Source of the DNA: Oscillospiraceae bacterium
GTDB lineage: Bacteria; Bacillota; Clostridia; Oscillospirales; Oscillospiraceae
Reading direction: 5' to 3'
Length of the DNA stretch: 35,507 nt
Assembly: GCA_902799075.1 (NCBI GenBank)
Contig: CADBYZ010000009.1
Coordinates: forward strand, 1 to 35,507
The notes beneath the pieces are model-generated. The model worked only from the letters and a program-made list of their open reading frames with translations, was not told where the DNA came from and searched no databases. Of this stretch, positions 5,814 through 35,507 are shown in pieces. The position numbers and the translations under genes were made by a program. Positions within the stretch are counted from its first letter, which is position 1. Each line of letters begins with the position of its first letter.

Positions 5814-6887
5814 TTAGTTTGCTTCATCAGACGCCGAGAAGCTGGACGTGCTCATCACGCGCAGCAGGCGCTCGGGATAGAGGATGGTGGCGCCGTTGGT
5901 CTCGAACTTGTAGCCGATGGTGCTGAACTGGTTCAGCGGACCGCCGATCTCGCCCTTGTCGTGAATGATCATCTCCAGTGCGCCGCCCTCGGGGTCGATG
6001 ATGCCGAAGGAGTCCCTGCCGAAGAAGTAGGTGGCGTAAACGGCGACGGAGCCGCTGCCCTCCTTGATGACGGGGGCAAAGACGTTTTCGATGAAGCGCA
6101 CGCCGTGCAGCTCGCCGATCTCGCCGTTGAAGATCTCCTCGGGAGCGGCGTACTTGTGGGCCTCAATCCAGCTGTCGCTCGCGCGCAGGTCGTGGGCCAC
6201 CGAGGGGTGGATGACCGCGAAGTACTTGCCGCCGATTCTCGGCACGCGGTTTTTCTTCATGACGGTGACGGCCTTGTTCACCATCTCCGGGGTGAGATGG
6301 CAGTGGTAGGTGGCGTCCTCGGTAAGGCCGCTGTTCTGGGTGGGGGTGGCGTTGACGCTGCCGTCGGCCTTCTTGATCTTGTCGCAGTAGAGGACGTTGG
6401 TGTTGGTATAGAGGGCTGTGCGGATCAGGGCCTCCTGGGTCTCGGCGGCGGAGGCGCCCATTTCCTCGGTGGCGCCCAGGATCACGTCGTCGTAGGCTCT
6501 GAGCTCCAGTCTGTCGGTGATGGCGGTGTAGGTGCCGTACTGGTCGATGCTGCCGGTGACGGCGGTGACGCCGAACTTCTGGCCGGTGGGGATGACGCCC
6601 TCGGTGAGCTTTGAGGCGCGCTCAAAGGTGTTCCACTTGCGCCACTCGACGCTGCCGTGGTGGTTTGCGGGCAGGGGCTGGCGCTTGGCGAGCTGGGCAT
6701 AGAAAAGCTCGGTCCTGGCGTTTTCCAGCAGCTCCGTGTCGTAGAAGGCTTTGAGCTCGGCGGACAGGGTATGGTCAGAGTCAAAGGCGGTTCCGCCATT
6801 GCTGTCATAGGCGTTTGCAAAGCCGCCGGTGGCATTGACCAGCGTACCGGCGTCGGCAAAATGCTGAAGGTTAAAATAGTTGTGCAT
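5814..6887 (-). CDS. Major capsid protein, N4-gp56 family, with N-terminal Prp-type cleavage motif
   Basis: 357 aa, HK97-fold major capsid protein of the N4-gp56 family. Supporting phrases are YDTELLENARTELFYAQLAKRQPLP near residues 50-75 (the family hallmark), NTFERASKLTEGV, and a C-terminal YKFETNGATILYPERLLRV. Length fits the family (300-420 aa). The N-terminus reads MHNYFNLQHFADAG. This matches the NLQ-(F/H)-F-A motif at which the cysteine protease Prp cuts ribosomal protein L27 and the 80alpha capsid and scaffold proteins. Removal of about ten residues during maturation is therefore likely. A Prp-like gene lies 1.8 kb upstream in the same operon. ATG 6887 has GAAAGGAG 7-8 bases upstream. 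Confidence 0.9.
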   Translation of the reverse strand: MHNYFNLQHFADAGTLVNATGGFANAYDSNGGTAFDSDHTLSAELKAFYDTELLENARTELFYAQLAKRQPLPANHHGSVEWRKWNTFERASKLTEGVIPTGQKFGVTAVTGSIDQYGTYTAITDRLELRAYDDVILGATEEMGASAAETQEALIRTALYTNTNVLYCDKIKKADGSVNATPTQNSGLTEDATYHCHLTPEMVNKAVTVMKKNRVPRIGGKYFAVIHPSVAHDLRASDSWIEAHKYAAPEEIFNGEIGELHGVRFIENVFAPVIKEGSGSVAVYATYFFGRDSFGIIDPEGGALEMIIHDKGEIGGPLNQFSTIGYKFETNGATILYPERLLRVMSTSSFSASDEAN

Positions 6888-6912
6888 AGATTTCTCCTTT
6901 CAAATCTGGGGT

Positions 6913-7659
6913 TTACTCCCCCGGCCCGATCCTTCTTCCCTGGGCCTTGGCCTCCAGGATGCGTTTTTTCAGGGCCTCTCGTTCTTCGCGGCTCATGGAT
7001 CGCGGATCAAGGGTGAAGCGTCCCCCCTGCCCGGTCTCCCGCAGCTCGCGCGGCCTCGCCCCCGCGCTTTGAAGGCTCCGGCTGACGGCCTCGAGGCTTC
7101 TGCGCGCCGTATCGCGCTGGAGCTCTGCCCGGTGACGGGCAAAGTAGGCGTCGGCAAGGGAGATGCCGCTGTGCGGCGCGGTCATGCGCACAAAGTCCGC
7201 ATCCTCCATTTCGCGGGCAAGATCAAAGTCCGGCACGCTCCGGCGCAGGGCCTCGGCCTCGGCGTACATCGCCTGCAGGTGCGCCGCGATCCCGGCGCCC
7301 TCGGGGCGGTAGGCCTCCGCCCTCTCCCGCAGATTTTGGGCCAGGCTCTCCGCGTCGCTCTCCTCTGTGAGGCCGTAGCGCTCCTCCAGCACCCTGAGTA
7401 CCGGCGAGAGTCTTTCAAGCCTCTCCTCGGCCCGGGCTCTGCCGCGAAGCCGCGCCTTAACGATGCCCTGCACCGCCTGATCGTAGCTGCTTCGGTAATC
7501 GGGGTCCTGCAAAATTTCCTCCCAGCTGGGCTTGTGCTGTCCGTCCTGCCCGGACTCGGCGGCGGGCGGCGCCGTCTCTGCTGCCGCCGGGGTCTCGGCG
7601 GCGTTCTCCGCGCCCGTGACCGGCTCGGCCGGTCTGATGGTTTCCGCTTCGTTGTTCAT
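6913..7659 (-). CDS. Putative phage scaffold protein
   Basis: 248 aa from ATG 7659, chosen because AAGGAG lies 7 bases upstream; a longer frame to 7686 has no such site. The first ~50 residues are Ala/Pro/Glu-rich and disordered. The rest is charged helix with coiled-coil character (RAEERLERLSPVLRVLEERYGL), ending in a basic tail with REEREALKKRILEAKAQGRR. Its place directly before the major capsid gene, its acidic disordered N-terminus and its helical body are typical of scaffolding proteins. No Prp-type NLQ-F-A motif is visible in it, unlike the capsid protein. No protease domain is seen. Confidence 0.65.
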   Translation of the reverse strand: MNNEAETIRPAEPVTGAENAAETPAAAETAPPAAESGQDGQHKPSWEEILQDPDYRSSYDQAVQGIVKARLRGRARAEERLERLSPVLRVLEERYGLTEESDAESLAQNLRERAEAYRPEGAGIAAHLQAMYAEAEALRRSVPDFDLAREMEDADFVRMTAPHSGISLADAYFARHRAELQRDTARRSLEAVSRSLQSAGARPRELRETGQGGRFTLDPRSMSREEREALKKRILEAKAQGRRIGPGE

Positions 7660-7704
7660 GCTTTTTCTCCTTATCTGTACCGGCAAAGGCCGGGAAAGGG
7701 TAAC

Positions 7705-8667
7705 TTAAAGTCTGCGGCTCTTGCCGTTGGAGCCGCTGCCCTTCTGGTTCGCGGCCAGCTTTATCTGCTCCTTGCTGCCGGGTATGCTGTTTATCGGGCC
7801 GGTGGGGATGGTGTATCCGCCGCCTGAGCCCTTATTGCCGCCCGCGGCGGAAGCGCCGCCGGAATAGCCGCCCGCCAGCAGTCCCAGCAGATCACTGCCG
7901 CCGAGTCCGCCGGACATGACCAGCGCCGCGGGGTTTTTCATGAGGTAATCATTGCGCAGCGCCTGGGCCTGACCACGGCTCATTCCGGCGGCGGACAGCT
8001 CCGCGTCGCTCGGCATGTAGCCGCTCTGGGTGATGAGCTTCATCATGTTCTGATAGCTTTTCTCCCCGCGCTCGTAGTCGAGCTTCTCCTGTGCCAGCAT
8101 CTGGGAATAGCCCGCCTGCTGCCGCTGATACTGAAGCTGCTCCCGCGCAAGGTCACGGTCGAGCTTGTCCTGCCCGCGCCGGTAAGCCTGCTCCTCCAGC
8201 TTTGCCGCCATATCGTAGCGGTCCTTCGCCCGGCCGACCTCATCCTGCGCAAGGGCCATCGTCGAATCGAACAGGCCCTTGAGCTCGTCGCCCTCGGCGT
8301 TGTAGCGCTCCCAGGCGGCCTGGTAGAGCTGGGGCATCACCTGGCCCAGGCGCTGGAGATAGTACTCGTACTCCTGCTGTCCCACGCTCTGGGCGTAGCT
8401 GGAGCCGTAGCCGCCCGTAAGGGAGGCCGCCTGCCCCATGGTGTCGCGCATGGCGCGCTGCCCCTCGCCCACCATCTGGGTGCGGTAGCTCTGGTACAGG
8501 GGGTCGCCCGCTGGGTCGTAGCGGAAGGCGGGCCGGTTCACGATCTCGTCATAGAGTCTGCGGATCTGGCTGTCGTAGCTGGACGTAAAGTCCGGCAGCA
8601 CGCTCTCGGCGCGGCGCAGGGCCTCCATGGTGCTGTCAAACTCGGTTTTCGTTTTTTCTTCGCTCAT
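7705..8667 (-). CDS. Coiled-coil phage virion protein, possible ejection/internal protein
   Basis: 320 aa, translationally coupled to the protease gene by an ATGA overlap at 8664-8667. The body is helical and Gln/Tyr/Ala-rich, with the phrases YDPAGDPLYQSYRTQMV and DTMGQAASLTGGYGSSYAQ followed by YEYYLQRLGQVMPQLYQAA, then a long coiled coil (residues ~125-215) and a Gly/Ser-rich, low-complexity C-terminal 80 residues with a basic end. I remember this phrase set in hypothetical proteins next to N4-gp56 capsid genes in gut phages. An internal virion or DNA-ejection protein fits its composition, but no function is shown by the sequence. Confidence 0.6.
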   Translation of the reverse strand: MSEEKTKTEFDSTMEALRRAESVLPDFTSSYDSQIRRLYDEIVNRPAFRYDPAGDPLYQSYRTQMVGEGQRAMRDTMGQAASLTGGYGSSYAQSVGQQEYEYYLQRLGQVMPQLYQAAWERYNAEGDELKGLFDSTMALAQDEVGRAKDRYDMAAKLEEQAYRRGQDKLDRDLAREQLQYQRQQAGYSQMLAQEKLDYERGEKSYQNMMKLITQSGYMPSDAELSAAGMSRGQAQALRNDYLMKNPAALVMSGGLGGSDLLGLLAGGYSGGASAAGGNKGSGGGYTIPTGPINSIPGSKEQIKLAANQKGSGSNGKSRRL

Positions 8668-9002
8668 TCCTCATCCTCCTGTTCCAAATCCTCGCCCGTG
8701 AGCGTGAGCGATACGTTTTCGGGCCTGTTTTCGGCGAGTGCCGCGATCCCGGCGGCGATCGTGTCAAAACTCTCGCGGCAAAGCTCTTCGTGTCCGTCCG
8801 GACTGCACCGCAGGGAGAAGAAGCCCGGCGCGCGCCGGATCACCGGCAGGGTCCGCTCCGCCGTCTCCTCCATGCGCTTTTCCAGCGCCATCATCAGCGC
8901 GCTCAGCGCCGCGCACACGAGGTCGCCGCCGGCAGGCCCCGCCTGGGCGTGTCCCTCCATCGTGAGGCAGAGGCCCTCCCGGTCATACCGTACCCGCGTC
9001 AT
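8664..9002 (-). CDS. Phage-encoded Prp-like cysteine protease
   Basis: 112 aa, the length of the Prp (YsxB) family that trims the N-terminus of ribosomal protein L27 in Firmicutes. The family core is present: G17-H18-A19 and D27-L28-V29-C30-A31-A32-L33-S34. His18 and Cys30 are 12 residues apart, the same spacing I recall for the His22/Cys34 pair of Staphylococcus aureus Prp. The gene lies between portal and coiled-coil genes, overlaps both (ATGA-type), and so is part of the virion operon rather than of an L21-prp-L27 operon. Together with the Prp motif in the capsid N-terminus this suggests a dedicated maturation protease. Activity itself is inferred. Confidence 0.82.
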   Translation of the reverse strand: MTRVRYDREGLCLTMEGHAQAGPAGGDLVCAALSALMMALEKRMEETAERTLPVIRRAPGFFSLRCSPDGHEELCRESFDTIAAGIAALAENRPENVSLTLTGEDLEQEDEE

Positions 9003-10852
9003 CGTCCGCCTCCCGGCTGGCCCGCGGCGCCGGCTCTGGCCCTGGCCCGCTCCATGCGCCGGTCCTCGCGGGCGCTGTCACGCTTGACCTCAGTCTTTTT
9101 TGGCGCGGGCCCAGCCCTGCCCGTCAGGCCCGCCATCAGGCGGGCCGCCCGCTCGGGCTCGTATTTCTGCGTCATGGCCAGGGCGTACTGCTGGTACAGG
9201 GCCAGCTCCTTCTGGATGCTGCCGTTATAGAAAAGCTGCTGCATCAGCTCGTCCTTGCCCTCAAACTCCATCATGCTCATGCACGCGAGGGCCTGGTCGC
9301 TGCGCTCGGGGGTAAAGAAGCCGAGCTGATAAAACTGCAATGCCAGCTCGTTCTGGCTCATGCGGGTATAGGCGCTGCTCTTCTGGGGGATGACACGGAT
9401 GTCGAAGACCGGTCTTCGCAGGCCGAGATCCACACCCTCCGGGGCATAGAGCGCCTGGGGGCGCAGTCCCTGATTGGAGTAGCTCACAAACTGCTCCAGC
9501 CCCAGCGCGCCCGTGATGCGAAACTGCCGCGGCAGATCGTAAAACTGGCGGATGAGCTCGATGCACAGCTCGATCATCTCCGCGTACACCCGGTAGCTTG
9601 CGCGGGTGGAGTCGCGGCTGCCCTTGCCGCTGGCCTCCTGCAAAGCCGCGATGGCGGAGGCGGCGGTCACGCCCGCGTTCACAAGTCCCACCGAGGTCTC
9701 GGTATTGCCGGAGGTCTCCCTGAGCTCATTGATGACGCTTGCGCGCATTTCAAGATAGTTGCCGCTTAACGGCCTGTAGTCCACGATGCGCAGGCTGTCC
9801 TCGCCGAGGTTGCCGCTGACGTGGACGATGGGGTTGGAGAGGTTCAGAAACTCCTCCTCGTTCACGGCCCCGTCGGCGCGCTCAAAGTAGCGCGGCACCG
9901 CGCCCACCATGGTGTTCTTGAGAAAGGCGGTCTGCAGCATGTCGATCTGGGTCTGTGCATTGCGGCAGAGGTCGATGTACCCGTAGCCGCAGGGGCTTCC
10001 CTCCACGGGGAAGAGGCTGTCGAACACGAAGGGGTAGCGCCCGTGGTCGTAGAGCCCGCGCGCAAAATCCGTCTCCCCTGCCGTCTCGCGCAGGAAGTCC
10101 TCGTTCTCGCTTGCGTACAGGAGCGTCGAGCCCACGTACTTGCAGTAATGCAGCACGTCCCGGCCCAGGAATTTCTTCTTGTAGTACACGTCGATAACGG
10201 TGCTTTTGCCGTCGGTGCCCACGCTGTCGTCGTAGAGAAAGCGCGTGGGCGCAAAGCTCATGGCCTTGAGCTTTCCGGCAAGCTGGGGGTACTCGGCGGT
10301 GAGAGCGTCGTTGTCCTCAAGGCGCGTGTGGAAAAAGTACGCGCTGTCCTGCACGTCGCGCACCCCCGGCTCCCAGAACACGTTCAGAAGGTCGACGCGC
10401 TCAATGGTGATATCGCCGAGGCCGCCCGCCTTCTCCGTGTCCCAGCCCACGCGGTAGACGCCCGTGCCGGTCTTGAGCTTCTGCCACATGCCGTCGGAGT
10501 AGGTCTTCTCGAAGGCGTTCTGCTCCAGGATCACGGGCAGGATCTTGGACAGGATGCGCGCCTCGGCCCGGTCGTCGGGCTCGCGCGGCAGGATGTTCGG
10601 CTCGGGATAGGCGTCCATGGCGTCGGCGTGCTTGGAGACGATCACGTTGTGCAGCCACCCGGACACGGCCTGAAAGCCGTCGGAAGCCTCATGGCTTTTT
10701 CTCTCCTCGGCGCTGTTGCGGAGCTTCCACCAGTTTTCCGCCGCCACGGCGCGCCGCTCGATGCTGGCCTTCCCGGCCTTGTACTTCTGCAAAATCCGCG
10801 TAAATTCCGCCAGCCGCTTCTCATCGACCGGCAGGGCTAAATCCTTGTCCAT
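8999..10852 (-). CDS. Phage portal protein
   Basis: 617 aa from ATG 10852. An earlier in-frame ATG at 10966 would read through a repeat element and is not preferred; GGAGG lies 13 bases before 10852. The N-terminal helix region (EKRLAEFTRILQKYKAGKASIERRAVAAENWWKLRN) and the phrases AYFFHTRLEDND, GYIDLCRNAQTQIDML and NAGVTAASAIAALQEASGKGSRD are typical of podovirus-like portals of gut Firmicutes phages. The C-terminus is basic and disordered. The portal forms the dodecameric ring at the DNA entry vertex and binds the terminase encoded next to it. Its end overlaps the Prp gene by 4 bases. Confidence 0.85.
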   Translation of the reverse strand: MDKDLALPVDEKRLAEFTRILQKYKAGKASIERRAVAAENWWKLRNSAEERKSHEASDGFQAVSGWLHNVIVSKHADAMDAYPEPNILPREPDDRAEARILSKILPVILEQNAFEKTYSDGMWQKLKTGTGVYRVGWDTEKAGGLGDITIERVDLLNVFWEPGVRDVQDSAYFFHTRLEDNDALTAEYPQLAGKLKAMSFAPTRFLYDDSVGTDGKSTVIDVYYKKKFLGRDVLHYCKYVGSTLLYASENEDFLRETAGETDFARGLYDHGRYPFVFDSLFPVEGSPCGYGYIDLCRNAQTQIDMLQTAFLKNTMVGAVPRYFERADGAVNEEEFLNLSNPIVHVSGNLGEDSLRIVDYRPLSGNYLEMRASVINELRETSGNTETSVGLVNAGVTAASAIAALQEASGKGSRDSTRASYRVYAEMIELCIELIRQFYDLPRQFRITGALGLEQFVSYSNQGLRPQALYAPEGVDLGLRRPVFDIRVIPQKSSAYTRMSQNELALQFYQLGFFTPERSDQALACMSMMEFEGKDELMQQLFYNGSIQKELALYQQYALAMTQKYEPERAARLMAGLTGRAGPAPKKTEVKRDSAREDRRMERARARAGAAGQPGGGR

Positions 10853-10879
10853 ACGTTTTTTGAATCCTCCGTTCCTTAC

Positions 10880-11025
10880 TGTAGGGGCTGACGCCCTCGG
10901 CAGCCCGCGCGGTAAAACCCGCGATATCGGATAAGATAGGCGCGAATAAAAATGTCTGTTTTTCACACATCATCTCACATGGTACGTCATCTTACATCGG
11001 GCCGCCGAGGGCGTCGGCCCCTACA
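10880..11025. repeat. TIR element copy A (GTAGGGGC-family, MITE-like)
   Basis: The termini 10880-10907 and 10998-11025 are inverted repeats of about 28 bases with two mismatches (TGTAGGGGCYGACGCCCTCG and onward). The interior is about 90 bases, not coding, and lacks the nested CCCCGGC hairpin found in copies B and C. It fills the gap between terL and the portal gene, so it must be transcribed with the late phage genes. Two further copies lie at 17875-18024 and 24999-25150. Confidence 0.8.
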
Positions 11026-11033
11026 ATTTCATT

Positions 11034-12458
11034 CTATTTTTTCAGCGGGTCCACCAGCAGCGTCTTCTCCTCCACGGGTCTGAGCGGCAGGATGGGCCGC
11101 GCCATGCAGAGATACCGCCACTCGTCGGCCACGTGGTCCTCCTGGCTCGTGTCCAGATCCTCGGGCTCGGCTTTGGCAAACTGCAAAAGCGGGATCGTGC
11201 GGATAAAGGCCCTGCAGTTATCGAAGACATACATCCGCGCCCGGCCCTCGTCGTCAAACTGCAGGCGGTAGTGGCACTGCATCCAGCCGGGGATACGCTT
11301 GTGGTCGCCGGGGACGAAGTAGACCCCGAAGCGCGCGGCGGTCTCGGCCACGCTCTCGCCGCGGCTTGCGTCCCAGATGGCGGGGTCGGCCACGCCCTCG
11401 ATCCTCCGTCCCCGCAGCCAGGGGTGCTCGCGCTCGATACGGGCGATCTCCTGAAACTGCTTATCCGGCGTCCAGCGCACGCCCTCGTTCGGGGTGTCGG
11501 TGCAGCCGTAGAGCTCGAGGATGCGGTACAGCACCCCCTCGTAGTCCAGCGCCCACCACGCGCAGGAGAAGGGCTTGCCGTAGCCGAAGTCATAGCTTCT
11601 GAGGATCGTCCATCCCCGCCGCGGCCCCGCGCTCATATCCAGCGGCGCGATCACATGGCACCATCTCCCCTGGGCCTTGAGCTCCTCCCTTGAAAGCTCG
11701 CAGCCGTGTTCCAAAGCCTCCTTCATGTCCGGCTCGATACGGAAATCCTCGAAGAACTGCCCCTCGAAGATGTCCCAGCTGCCGTAGAGCCACGCCTCTC
11801 TGAGCTTCGGCGGCAGGCTTTTAAGTTGCTTTACGTAGTCGGGGTTTTTCTCCATCAGCGCCCGGTTGTCCGTGACCAGTGCTTGGATGAAGCTATGCTC
11901 GTCCGGCTCCTCGCCCTCCCGAAAGCGCCGGTCGAGAAAGAGGCGCTTGACCCAGGCGTGACCCTCGCCGCCGGGATTGCAGGTGTAGTAGATGCGCTTG
12001 GGAAAGTCGTTCGTGCCTCGCACGCAGGCGCGCAGCTTTTCCATGCTGCTCTCGCTCTGCTGGGTAGCCTCGTCCACGAACAGCACATCCACCTCTGTCC
12101 CCTGAAAGCGCAGCGCGTCCTTCTCGTTTTCCAGATACCGGAACAAAATCCGGCTGCCGTTTGGAAAGGCGATCTGTTTTTTTCCGTCATTGTAGACCGC
12201 GATCCGTTCCTCGCCCTCCAGATAACAGCCCAGCATCTGGCACAGGGGCACGATGTGGTTTTCCTGCAGCTCGGGGTAGGTCTTGCGCACGATCATGACC
12301 TTGATGCCCGCGTACCGGAGACACAGCAGCACCGCCTTGACGCGCACGGCCCAGCTCTTCCCGCCGCCCCGCGCCCCGCCGTAGCCCACATACTTATGTC
12401 TGTCCCGCAAAAACAGCTTCTGCTTTTCGCTCGGCTGCGGCAAACACAGTTCAGCCAT
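11034..12458 (-). CDS. terL: Phage terminase large subunit
   Basis: 474 aa, the packaging motor and nuclease. The ATPase half shows Walker A GGARGGGKS at residues ~27-35, the adjacent VMIVRKTYPEL adenine-binding stretch, Walker B VLFVDEA, and the coupling motif YYTCNPGGEGH. The C-terminal RNase H-like nuclease domain has the expected acidic residues in YDFGYGKPF, VADPAIWD and EDHVADEWRY. All key residues are present, so the gene looks intact. It starts at ATG 12458 with GGAG 7 bases upstream, within a short GTGTGGAG repeat. The neighbouring portal gene is downstream, separated by TIR element copy A. Confidence 0.93.
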   Translation of the reverse strand: MAELCLPQPSEKQKLFLRDRHKYVGYGGARGGGKSWAVRVKAVLLCLRYAGIKVMIVRKTYPELQENHIVPLCQMLGCYLEGEERIAVYNDGKKQIAFPNGSRILFRYLENEKDALRFQGTEVDVLFVDEATQQSESSMEKLRACVRGTNDFPKRIYYTCNPGGEGHAWVKRLFLDRRFREGEEPDEHSFIQALVTDNRALMEKNPDYVKQLKSLPPKLREAWLYGSWDIFEGQFFEDFRIEPDMKEALEHGCELSREELKAQGRWCHVIAPLDMSAGPRRGWTILRSYDFGYGKPFSCAWWALDYEGVLYRILELYGCTDTPNEGVRWTPDKQFQEIARIEREHPWLRGRRIEGVADPAIWDASRGESVAETAARFGVYFVPGDHKRIPGWMQCHYRLQFDDEGRARMYVFDNCRAFIRTIPLLQFAKAEPEDLDTSQEDHVADEWRYLCMARPILPLRPVEEKTLLVDPLKK

Positions 12459-24998: not shown

Positions 24999-25150
24999 GT
25001 AGGGGCCGACGCTTATCACGCGGCCCGGCAGCTAAAACGGAAATTATACATCAATCCCCGGCGAAACCGTGTCAGTGTTTGCGTTTTCGCCGGGGATTTT
25101 TCATTGCGTCAATATGTATCGTGCGGGCCGCCGAGGGCGTCGGCCCCTAC
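24999..25150. repeat. TIR element copy C (GTAGGGGC-family) inside the tct operon, with nested hairpin
   Basis: Outer arms begin GTAGGGGCCGACGC (24999 on) and end GCGTCGGCCCCTAC (to 25150); the inner part of the left arm differs from the right arm. The interior has the hairpin ATCCCCGGCGAAA (25054-25066) with TTTCGCCGGGGAT (25085-25097), followed by T residues on the plus strand. Since tct genes are transcribed leftward, the T-run lies on the wrong side to stop them fully. Confidence 0.8.
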
Positions 25151-25172
25151 GATATTCTCTCCAGGAATCAGC

Positions 25173-31907: not shown

Positions 31908-34487
<2,580 letters not shown>

Positions 34488-35416: not shown

Positions 35417-35507
35417 GGACAGGTATCGAAGTGGTCATAACGGCCCTGACTCGAAATCAGGTAGTCTCGCAAGAGGCTCGTGGGTTCGAATCCCACCCTG
35501 TCCGCCA
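35417..35507 (+). tRNA. tRNA-Ser (anticodon CGA)
   Basis: 91 bases with encoded CCA. Acceptor arm GGACAGG pairs with CCTGTCC, discriminator G. The anticodon stem CCTGA/TCAGG holds the loop CTCGAAA, giving anticodon CGA, which reads UCG. A long variable arm (about GTCTCGCAAGAGGC) and T-loop GTTCGAATC mark it as a class II tRNA. It ends exactly at the window edge; no phage attachment duplication is visible. Confidence 0.95.

Follow-up and report, generated by a model that had tools for sequence, protein, structure and literature searches.

Known phage and ribosomal Prp systems

Cleavage of phage head proteins by proteases of the Prp type is known from two settings. Prp cuts an F↓A bond (the arrow marks the cut) in ribosomal protein L27 and in proteins of phage 80alpha, which uses the Prp of Staphylococcus aureus (SaPrp) (PMC9405229, PMC5744158). 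For L27, a consensus of MLxx(D/N)LQ(F/L)F'A has been published, and laboratory Escherichia coli has no Prp (PMC9405229). Streptococcus phage Cp-1 has a protease of family C108 (clan CR) that takes the first 48 residues off the major head protein of the same phage (PMC12445089). Both a phage C108 head protease and the cutting of 80alpha proteins by a host Prp are, therefore, already known. The present analysis concerns a Prp-family gene among the head genes of a putative prophage in the window, i.e. the whole 35,507-nt contig CADBYZ010000009.1 (contig C9) of an Oscillospiraceae metagenome-assembled genome (MAG; GCA_902799075.1, 2.4 Mb, completeness 75.7%). With a probability of roughly 0.87, this prophage is considered to encode its own Prp (C108) head-maturation protease that would cut the capsid precursor; the predicted cleavage, the bond and the benefit are drawn from what is presented below, namely the genes with the catalytic residues and the fold modelled for the enzyme, the capsid motif, the state of the host, and the co-occurrence and covariation of site and Prp.

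The window phage resembles 80alpha in having an (N/D)LQ-F↓A-type site at the capsid N-terminus (PMC5744158). The 80alpha scaffold site has a counterpart in the scaffolds of many relatives of the window phage, but not in the window scaffold (PMC5744158). Whereas 80alpha uses the enzyme of S. aureus, the window phage encodes its own and a host Prp was not found, so that the combination seen with 80alpha, a host Prp and a phage without a protease, is not the one observed here. Both Cp-1 and the window phage have a C108-family protease, but Cp-1 is phi29-like and its head protein, unlike the window capsid, is without an LQxFA site. By comparison with Cp-1, the phage C108 gene and a capsid site are both present in the window, and cleavage is predicted. 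The product of Cp-1 orf13, which we take to be the Cp-1 head protease and which is called hypothetical in the record, gave a sub-threshold match to PF04327 (E 0.0024) and has the pattern GHG...SCA. As a side observation, phage CP-1 is called staphylococcal in PMC9405229, while the host given in record NC_001825 is Streptococcus pneumoniae.

The original prediction stated that no such case had been described in N4-gp56-type phages. In the literature covered, neither an N4-gp56 case, nor the pairing of a phage Prp and a site of the L27 type, nor a link to host Prp loss, nor switching was found described; the 2015 and 2017 Prp papers of Wall et al. lie outside that coverage and may mention phage homologs. 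The statement thus stands for the N4-gp56 group, but is too broad if extended to phage proteases of this family, in view of the C108 protease with which Cp-1 cuts its own head protein (PMC12445089).

The phage Prp

The gene at 8664–9002 (minus strand) encodes a Prp-family (MEROPS C108-like) cysteine protease of 112 aa, which matched Pfam PF04327 (Peptidase_Prp) with an E value of 7.7e-11 and 42.5 bits (cut-off 27) and also matched phrog_4478 ('peptidase'). It lies among virion genes, overlapping the portal gene by 4 nt on one side and a gene of unassigned function (7705–8667, minus strand) by 4 nt on the other. Both the family assignment and the overlaps were as predicted originally, and so was the catalytic pair: His18 (codon 8949–8951) and Cys30 (codon 8913–8915) are invariant columns, together with G17, G25 and D27, in an alignment of 35 phage sequences, and H18, C30 and G85 are invariant also among 29 more divergent phage Prps. 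The flexible loop, G17-H18 ... G25-x-D27 (8922–8954, minus strand), contains the equivalents of SaPrp G21, H22, G29 and D31. All six SaPrp residues reported as important (G21, H22, G29, D31, C34 and S38; PMC9405229) are kept in the phage enzyme at an offset of –4, as G17, H18, G25, D27, C30 and S34.

An AlphaFold2 model of the phage Prp, built from the 35-sequence alignment, had a pLDDT of 89.9 and a pTM of 0.82. Its top Foldseek matches were the substrate-bound SaPrp structures 7kld and 7jvs, with TM scores of 0.80 (query) and 0.84–0.85 (target), and all 14 matches at E ≤0.001 were Prp or Prp-like (7kld, 7jvs, 2g0i, 2g0j, 2idl, 1s12 and 4peo). The predicted fold agrees with the Prp fold as defined in PMC9405229, so that the comparison with SaPrp suggested in the original prediction bears out the family assignment; the modelled phage protein and SaPrp (7KLD/7JVS) share the fold, the dyad, the loop glycines and the Asp. 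The ratios of dN/dS for prp between relatives, 0.12–0.30 (NG86, six pairs), indicate purifying selection. No second head protease was found among the 20 window proteins scanned with Pfam, in keeping with the earlier remark that no other prohead protease was visible. Pfam alone overlooks divergent phage Prps, and those of genomes G114, G152, G364, G386 and G397 needed phage-trained profiles.

The predicted capsid cleavage site

The major capsid protein precursor (5814–6887, minus strand; 357 aa) passes the N4-gp56 major capsid model TIGR04387 with 185.2 bits (cut-off 60) and matches phrog_1357 (E 8e-65). Its N-terminus reads MHNYFNLQHFADAG and is preceded by AAGGAG. With the predicted cut, MHNYFNLQHF↓ADAG, this is a canonical Prp-type site. 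The site NLQHF↓A (P5–P1') is encoded at 6855–6872 (minus strand), and the predicted leader, MHNYFNLQHF (10 residues; 6858–6887, minus strand), was delimited by analogy with L27 and the 80alpha proteins, which are cut at F↓A.

In an alignment of 34 capsids with 38–88% identity to that of the window, Q8, F10 and A11 are invariant and the residues ahead of the site are variable. The motif is rare elsewhere. In 87 loci (the window and L004–L089), LQxFA was found 18 times outside capsid and scaffold open reading frames (ORFs) in 1,306,788 aa of six-frame ORFs, or 1.4e-5 per residue, and LQxFA within 25 aa past a Met was found in 71 capsid ORFs, 40 scaffold ORFs and three others. The only strict LQxFA match in the window is that of the capsid protein. 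These results uphold the proposal that the capsid N-terminus fits the Prp site. The accompanying proposal, that the scaffold-like protein (6913–7686, minus strand) is without the motif and the capsid would be the sole protein cut, agrees with the head genes of the window, but does not extend to the many relatives with a scaffold site. Since capsid and scaffold are different proteins, two proteins share the site in those relatives, as in 80alpha.

Co-occurrence of site and phage Prp

Loci with this capsid type were scored for both features, starting from a first viral scan of 80 loci. It is apparent from the 136 loci scored that site and Prp occur together in most (96), with 26 having the site only, 13 neither and one (L255) Prp only. 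L031, L034, L044 and L265, whose N-termini were missing or could not be read, were excluded; for eight loci the Prp counted lies beyond the extracted stretch, and about ten N-termini were set by hand. No portal was present on the stretch in 25 of the 26 site-only loci. In the portal-bearing subset (n=95, near-identical contigs counted), 86 had both, eight neither, one (L085) the site only and none Prp only. Some viral relatives that appeared to lack Prp proved to be artefacts of flank length: four of 12 records searched whole (L020, L041, L042 and L053) have it further along, and it was absent from the other eight (contigs of 7–25 kb).

The capsid type was found in 52 genomes of a 400-genome scan of the family. 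Classed by reading of the N-termini, 22 of these had an LQ-type site, 17 a variant site (another residue at P3) and 13 no site; the numbers in which a phage-type Prp was found were 21, 15 and none, respectively. In eight of these 13 the portal was in view, and genome-wide search gave an L27-adjacent Prp or nothing.

A scan of named genomes gave 80 loci, partly overlapping the earlier set (L326 = G286, L336 = G113): 58 had both features, 17 the site only, four neither and one Prp only. For the 62 with a portal, the corresponding numbers were 55 with both, four with the site only, two (L311 and L346) with neither and one (L286) with Prp and LQYYA. Two of the four site-only portal loci are from G286 and G113, which have Prp elsewhere; the other two are L343 and L344. 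The third scan, with the L085 capsid as query, added 42 loci, 32 with a portal, of which 23 had both, three the site only, three neither and three Prp without a strict site. One of these site-only loci, L374, has Prp elsewhere on its contig, and one scored as having neither, L386, has a borderline TQLFA in a truncated capsid. Prp is kept even away from the capsid gene: it lies at least 1 kb downstream in G132 and G113, and 22 kb upstream in contig C23 of G401.

To place these patterns on a phylogeny, a quick tree (LG+G4) was made from 86 capsid cores; L258 was dropped as short and loci found later were left out. For the Prp trait, five fragment rows were excluded, and for six rows the state was taken from a different contig of the genome concerned. 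Eight changes were needed for the site and eight for Prp, and seven of seven independent pairs were concordant (sign test, median p 0.016, range 0.016–0.031). The correlation anticipated among related phages is thus present, site and Prp being kept or lost together.

Covariation of the site with the enzyme loop

Loop residues Gly29 and Asp31 of SaPrp form bonds with the P3 Gln of its substrate (PMC9405229). The 184 loci with both a capsid and a Prp gave 136 distinct site–loop pairs, five loci being unscorable. P3 Gln occurred with a Gly-x-Asp loop in 125 pairs, neither was present in nine, and two were scored as discordant. Both discordant pairs were parsing errors: the N-terminal site of L258 is KLDLFD, and the loop of L366 is GHDLVCC. 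An earlier loop parser had given five discordant pairs, comprising three misread enzymes (L014, L029 and L224), a truncated enzyme (L068) and the misread site of L258, and the new parser was therefore used for the 136 pairs. Among the unscorable loci, L220 and L232 share the site NLRMFD. The loop ends in AEIPC in L220 and in ADLPC in L232; the L232 loop has the expected Asp without the Gly, so the separation is imperfect.

A divergent Prp subgroup (L217, L221, L223, L243, L248 and L258) was also observed, with a shortened loop, GHATGS...C, and no loop Asp. The capsids of this subgroup have L..F followed by an acidic residue, and most of the Prps score close to the Pfam cut-off or do not reach it.

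These data bear on the proposal that the motif at the capsid N-terminus serves structure or chaperone binding, the phage Prp binding it with cleavage absent or secondary. The N-terminus of the 80alpha scaffold is required while its cleavage is not (PMC5744158), and SaPrp has been discussed in terms of chaperone function and tight product binding (PMC9405229), but a binding role would account poorly for catalytic His and Cys residues that are invariant in the 29 divergent phage Prps, or for a loop for P3 Gln that covaries with the site. This proposal is considered improbable, although it is the strongest of the three alternatives weighed here.

Host Prp and ribosomal protein L27

The rplU and rpmA genes of the host are adjacent, with no gene between them, the junction itself being covered in the MAG. 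Host L27 starts MAHKKG, without an N-terminal extension, and so has no leader that the phage enzyme could remove. In the MAG (75.7% complete), a host Prp was looked for and not found, the sole Pfam Prp match being the phage gene. Within the sampled host family, a Prp match was obtained in 39 of 81 genomes (the match in G000 being the Prp of this phage) and L27 in 73 of 81. Among the leaders listed, an L27 leader such as MLNIGLQFF↓AHKK was present in 29 of 29 Prp-bearing genomes, and L27 was without a leader (M↓AHKK) in 15 of 15 genomes without a host Prp, this host included; three loci failed the L27 pattern in this count, and one of the 15, G079, has no clear ATG. It was also observed that 42 of the 81 genomes, some of them incomplete, have no Pfam Prp match, and that those among them whose L27 was read have a short form beginning at the mature residue (loci L002, L003 and L120–L148).

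Three same-genus genomes with such phages (G132, G197 and G286) have a short L27 and only phage-type Prps, none adjoining L27, and G113 and G270, from other genera, likewise have a short L27 and only phage-type Prp. In Prp-less hosts, a phage Prp accompanied an LQ-type capsid site in six of six cases (in G286, on another contig) and a variant site in two of four (G152 and G298), none being found in G213 and G231.

The original prediction also raised the possibility that the phage enzyme might act on host L27, which is not supported for this host. A broader form of that idea, in which the phage Prp targets L27 or other host proteins and remodels host ribosomes, the capsid motif being incidental, draws on family membership and on the family's known ribosomal role. 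Against it stand the host L27 without an extension, the location of prp among head genes, the joint loss of site and Prp on the capsid tree, and the failure of the phage Prp to reach the NCBIfam equivalog cut-offs for ribosomal-processing Prp (best 32.8 bits vs 136). Equivalog score, location between rplU and rpmA and L27 extension, the marks of a ribosomal-processing Prp, are all missing here. Bacterial Prp lies between rplU and rpmA and the phage Prp in a head module, and the two also separate on a tree (105 columns, poorly resolved apart from this branch), with 30 host Prps on one side and 52 phage Prps on the other (support 100). Recent capture of Prp from a host is not supported by this tree, and host proteins as the principal target are regarded as very unlikely.

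Relatives in which no own Prp was found

Five contigs in two groups (L085/L355/L356 and L343/L344) have a portal in view, L27-like capsid leaders and no Prp of their own that could be found. No Prp was found on the whole contigs L085 (25 kb), L355 (12 kb) and L356 (39 kb), the capsid leaders of which end GFQFF↓A. The L356 capsid starts MLPIGFQFF↓A, near family L27 leaders such as MLKIGFQFF↓A; those of L085 and L355 start MFKSKVGFQFF↓A. The capsid leader of L343 and L344 is MLKLNLQHF↓A. The sole Prp found in either genome adjoins L27, the leader of which is MLRLNLQLF↓A in one and MLKLNLQLF↓A in the other. By analogy with 80alpha, the L27-like leaders of these contigs suggest use of a host Prp. 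The numbers are small, and fragments could miss a phage Prp elsewhere; for L085, L355 and L356 the host Prp is itself hypothetical. The capsid leaders of L343 (4009–5073), L344 (3956–5023) and L356 (9001–10074) differ from L27 leaders at one or two positions, and may possibly mimic L27 to exploit host Prp. In G258, the capsid site, DLQLF↓A, is not a close copy of the host L27 leader, MLYIGLQFF; this host has Prp.

It could be argued from these relatives, and from the 80alpha precedent (PMC5744158), that a host Prp cleaves the window capsid as well and that prp is a passenger which the phage does not need. That would be hard to reconcile with a MAG in which no host Prp was found and L27 is short, a state with which three same-genus genomes agree, or with a prp gene that is under purifying selection and co-lost with the site; such a passenger role is given very little weight.

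Named phages with a Prp gene

Named phages with a Prp gene were retrieved by tblastn with the Prps of two relatives. Enterococcus phiFL3A, Oenococcus phiS11, Lactococcus PLgT-1 and TP712, Latilactobacillus TMW 1.1447 P1 and Dorea DO134P1 have, like the window phage, their own head-module Prp, which lies at or beside the annotated portal in phiFL3A, phiS11, PLgT-1 and TMW 1.1447 P1. They differ in not being annotated as N4-gp56-like, and phiFL3A has an SPP1-type portal domain. LQxF-type sites were found in scaffold and capsid of all six (named from position in DO134P1 and TP712), with capsid P1' residues of Thr in DO134P1 and Ser in TP712. The annotated tail protein was read in five of the phages: that of phiS11 has LQRF↓A, that of TMW 1.1447 P1 LQKF↓A, that of DO134P1 LQVF↓S and that of phiFL3A LQLL↓A, whereas that of PLgT-1 has no LQ-type site. 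Four named Firmicutes phages (L397, L398, L400 and L401) were observed to combine an LQ-type site in tail protein, scaffold and capsid with a head-module Prp. The Prp gene of the six phages is annotated as peptidase, ribosomal protein, hypothetical or unknown, or is unannotated; a function is thereby suggested for genes labelled 'DUF464' or 'ribosomal protein' in phages of lactic acid bacteria.

Proposed head maturation

In the mechanism envisaged, Prp would be made from the ORF overlapping the portal gene, and the capsid precursor would be cut at Phe10↓Ala11, with loss of MHNYFNLQHF either ahead of procapsid maturation or in its course. The scaffolds of many relatives would be trimmed as well. 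The phage would carry its own enzyme where a suitable host Prp is not dependable, because the host lineage has neither prp nor an extended L27, and each Prp is reported to act specifically on its own substrate (PMC9405229). The original view that the phage brings its own Prp, with the capsid as the likely substrate, is supported by the fold, the catalytic residues, co-retention and co-loss, covariation and a host without a detected Prp. These observations suggest that the phage would trim its own shell rather than borrow a host enzyme.

Several points weigh against this interpretation. Capsid cleavage is itself deduced from sequence and a structural model, and in 80alpha an uncleavable capsid protein still gives viable phage (PMC5744158), so the benefit of capsid cleavage is unclear. 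The site–loop covariation is phylogenetically clustered, which makes it support, not proof. The variant sites, LxLF↓D, violate the rule of a small P1' residue in known Prp substrates (PMC9405229), and their cut point is, therefore, uncertain. L255 has Prp but no L..F site by regular expression. Conversely, G258, G213 and G231 (95, 86 and 93% complete) carry a site with no phage-type Prp found genome-wide; in each of the three, the contig ends no more than about 2.3 kb from the capsid gene, and G213 and G231 have a variant site and Prp-less hosts. The site classes (A, B and C) on the capsid tree were assigned by eye with the Prp states known beforehand, and a MAG of 75.7% completeness is the base for the absence of a host Prp.

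More broadly, we lean towards a scheme in which the heads of Firmicutes phages may occupy three interchangeable states: an own Prp with a self-tuned site in the capsid, often the scaffold and sometimes a tail protein; no own Prp and a leader copying the L27 of a Prp-bearing host; or neither Prp nor leader. Switching would be repeated, with gain and loss of Prp and long L27 by hosts as one driver, and phage and ribosomal Prps would be parallel branches co-evolving with a short leader. Protease, site in one or two head proteins and host status can now be compared across many related phages, which makes the reason for Prp cleavage in phages a testable question, and natural enzyme–substrate variants are supplied for a protease that is a drug target.

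Gene order and host flanks

Next to the genes described above lie those for the portal protein (8999–10966, minus strand; P22_portal, E 9e-29) and the large terminase (11034–12458, minus strand; profile search). The scaffold-like protein was named from its position and matches phrog_13908 (unknown function). Neither an integrase nor a left prophage boundary was identified on the contig. Its right part contains bacterial genes: TctA, TctC, a ClpB-type ATPase (31908–34487, minus strand), an RHH gene and tRNA-Ser (35417–35507, plus strand). ClpB is 77–81% identical to those of three same-genus genomes over the full or nearly full length, and 66% identical to that of one genome from another family, and the order ClpB, RHH gene, tRNA-Ser is the same in a same-genus contig (L274, genome G097). 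From this identity and shared order, the phage contig is most likely part of this host's genome. The term prophage, used originally, is accordingly favoured by the host genes on the right, but not by the missing integrase and left boundary. A stretch of 27–29 nt occurs at 10998–11024 and again at 25123–25151, and both copies match one and the same stretch of contig L274 exactly.

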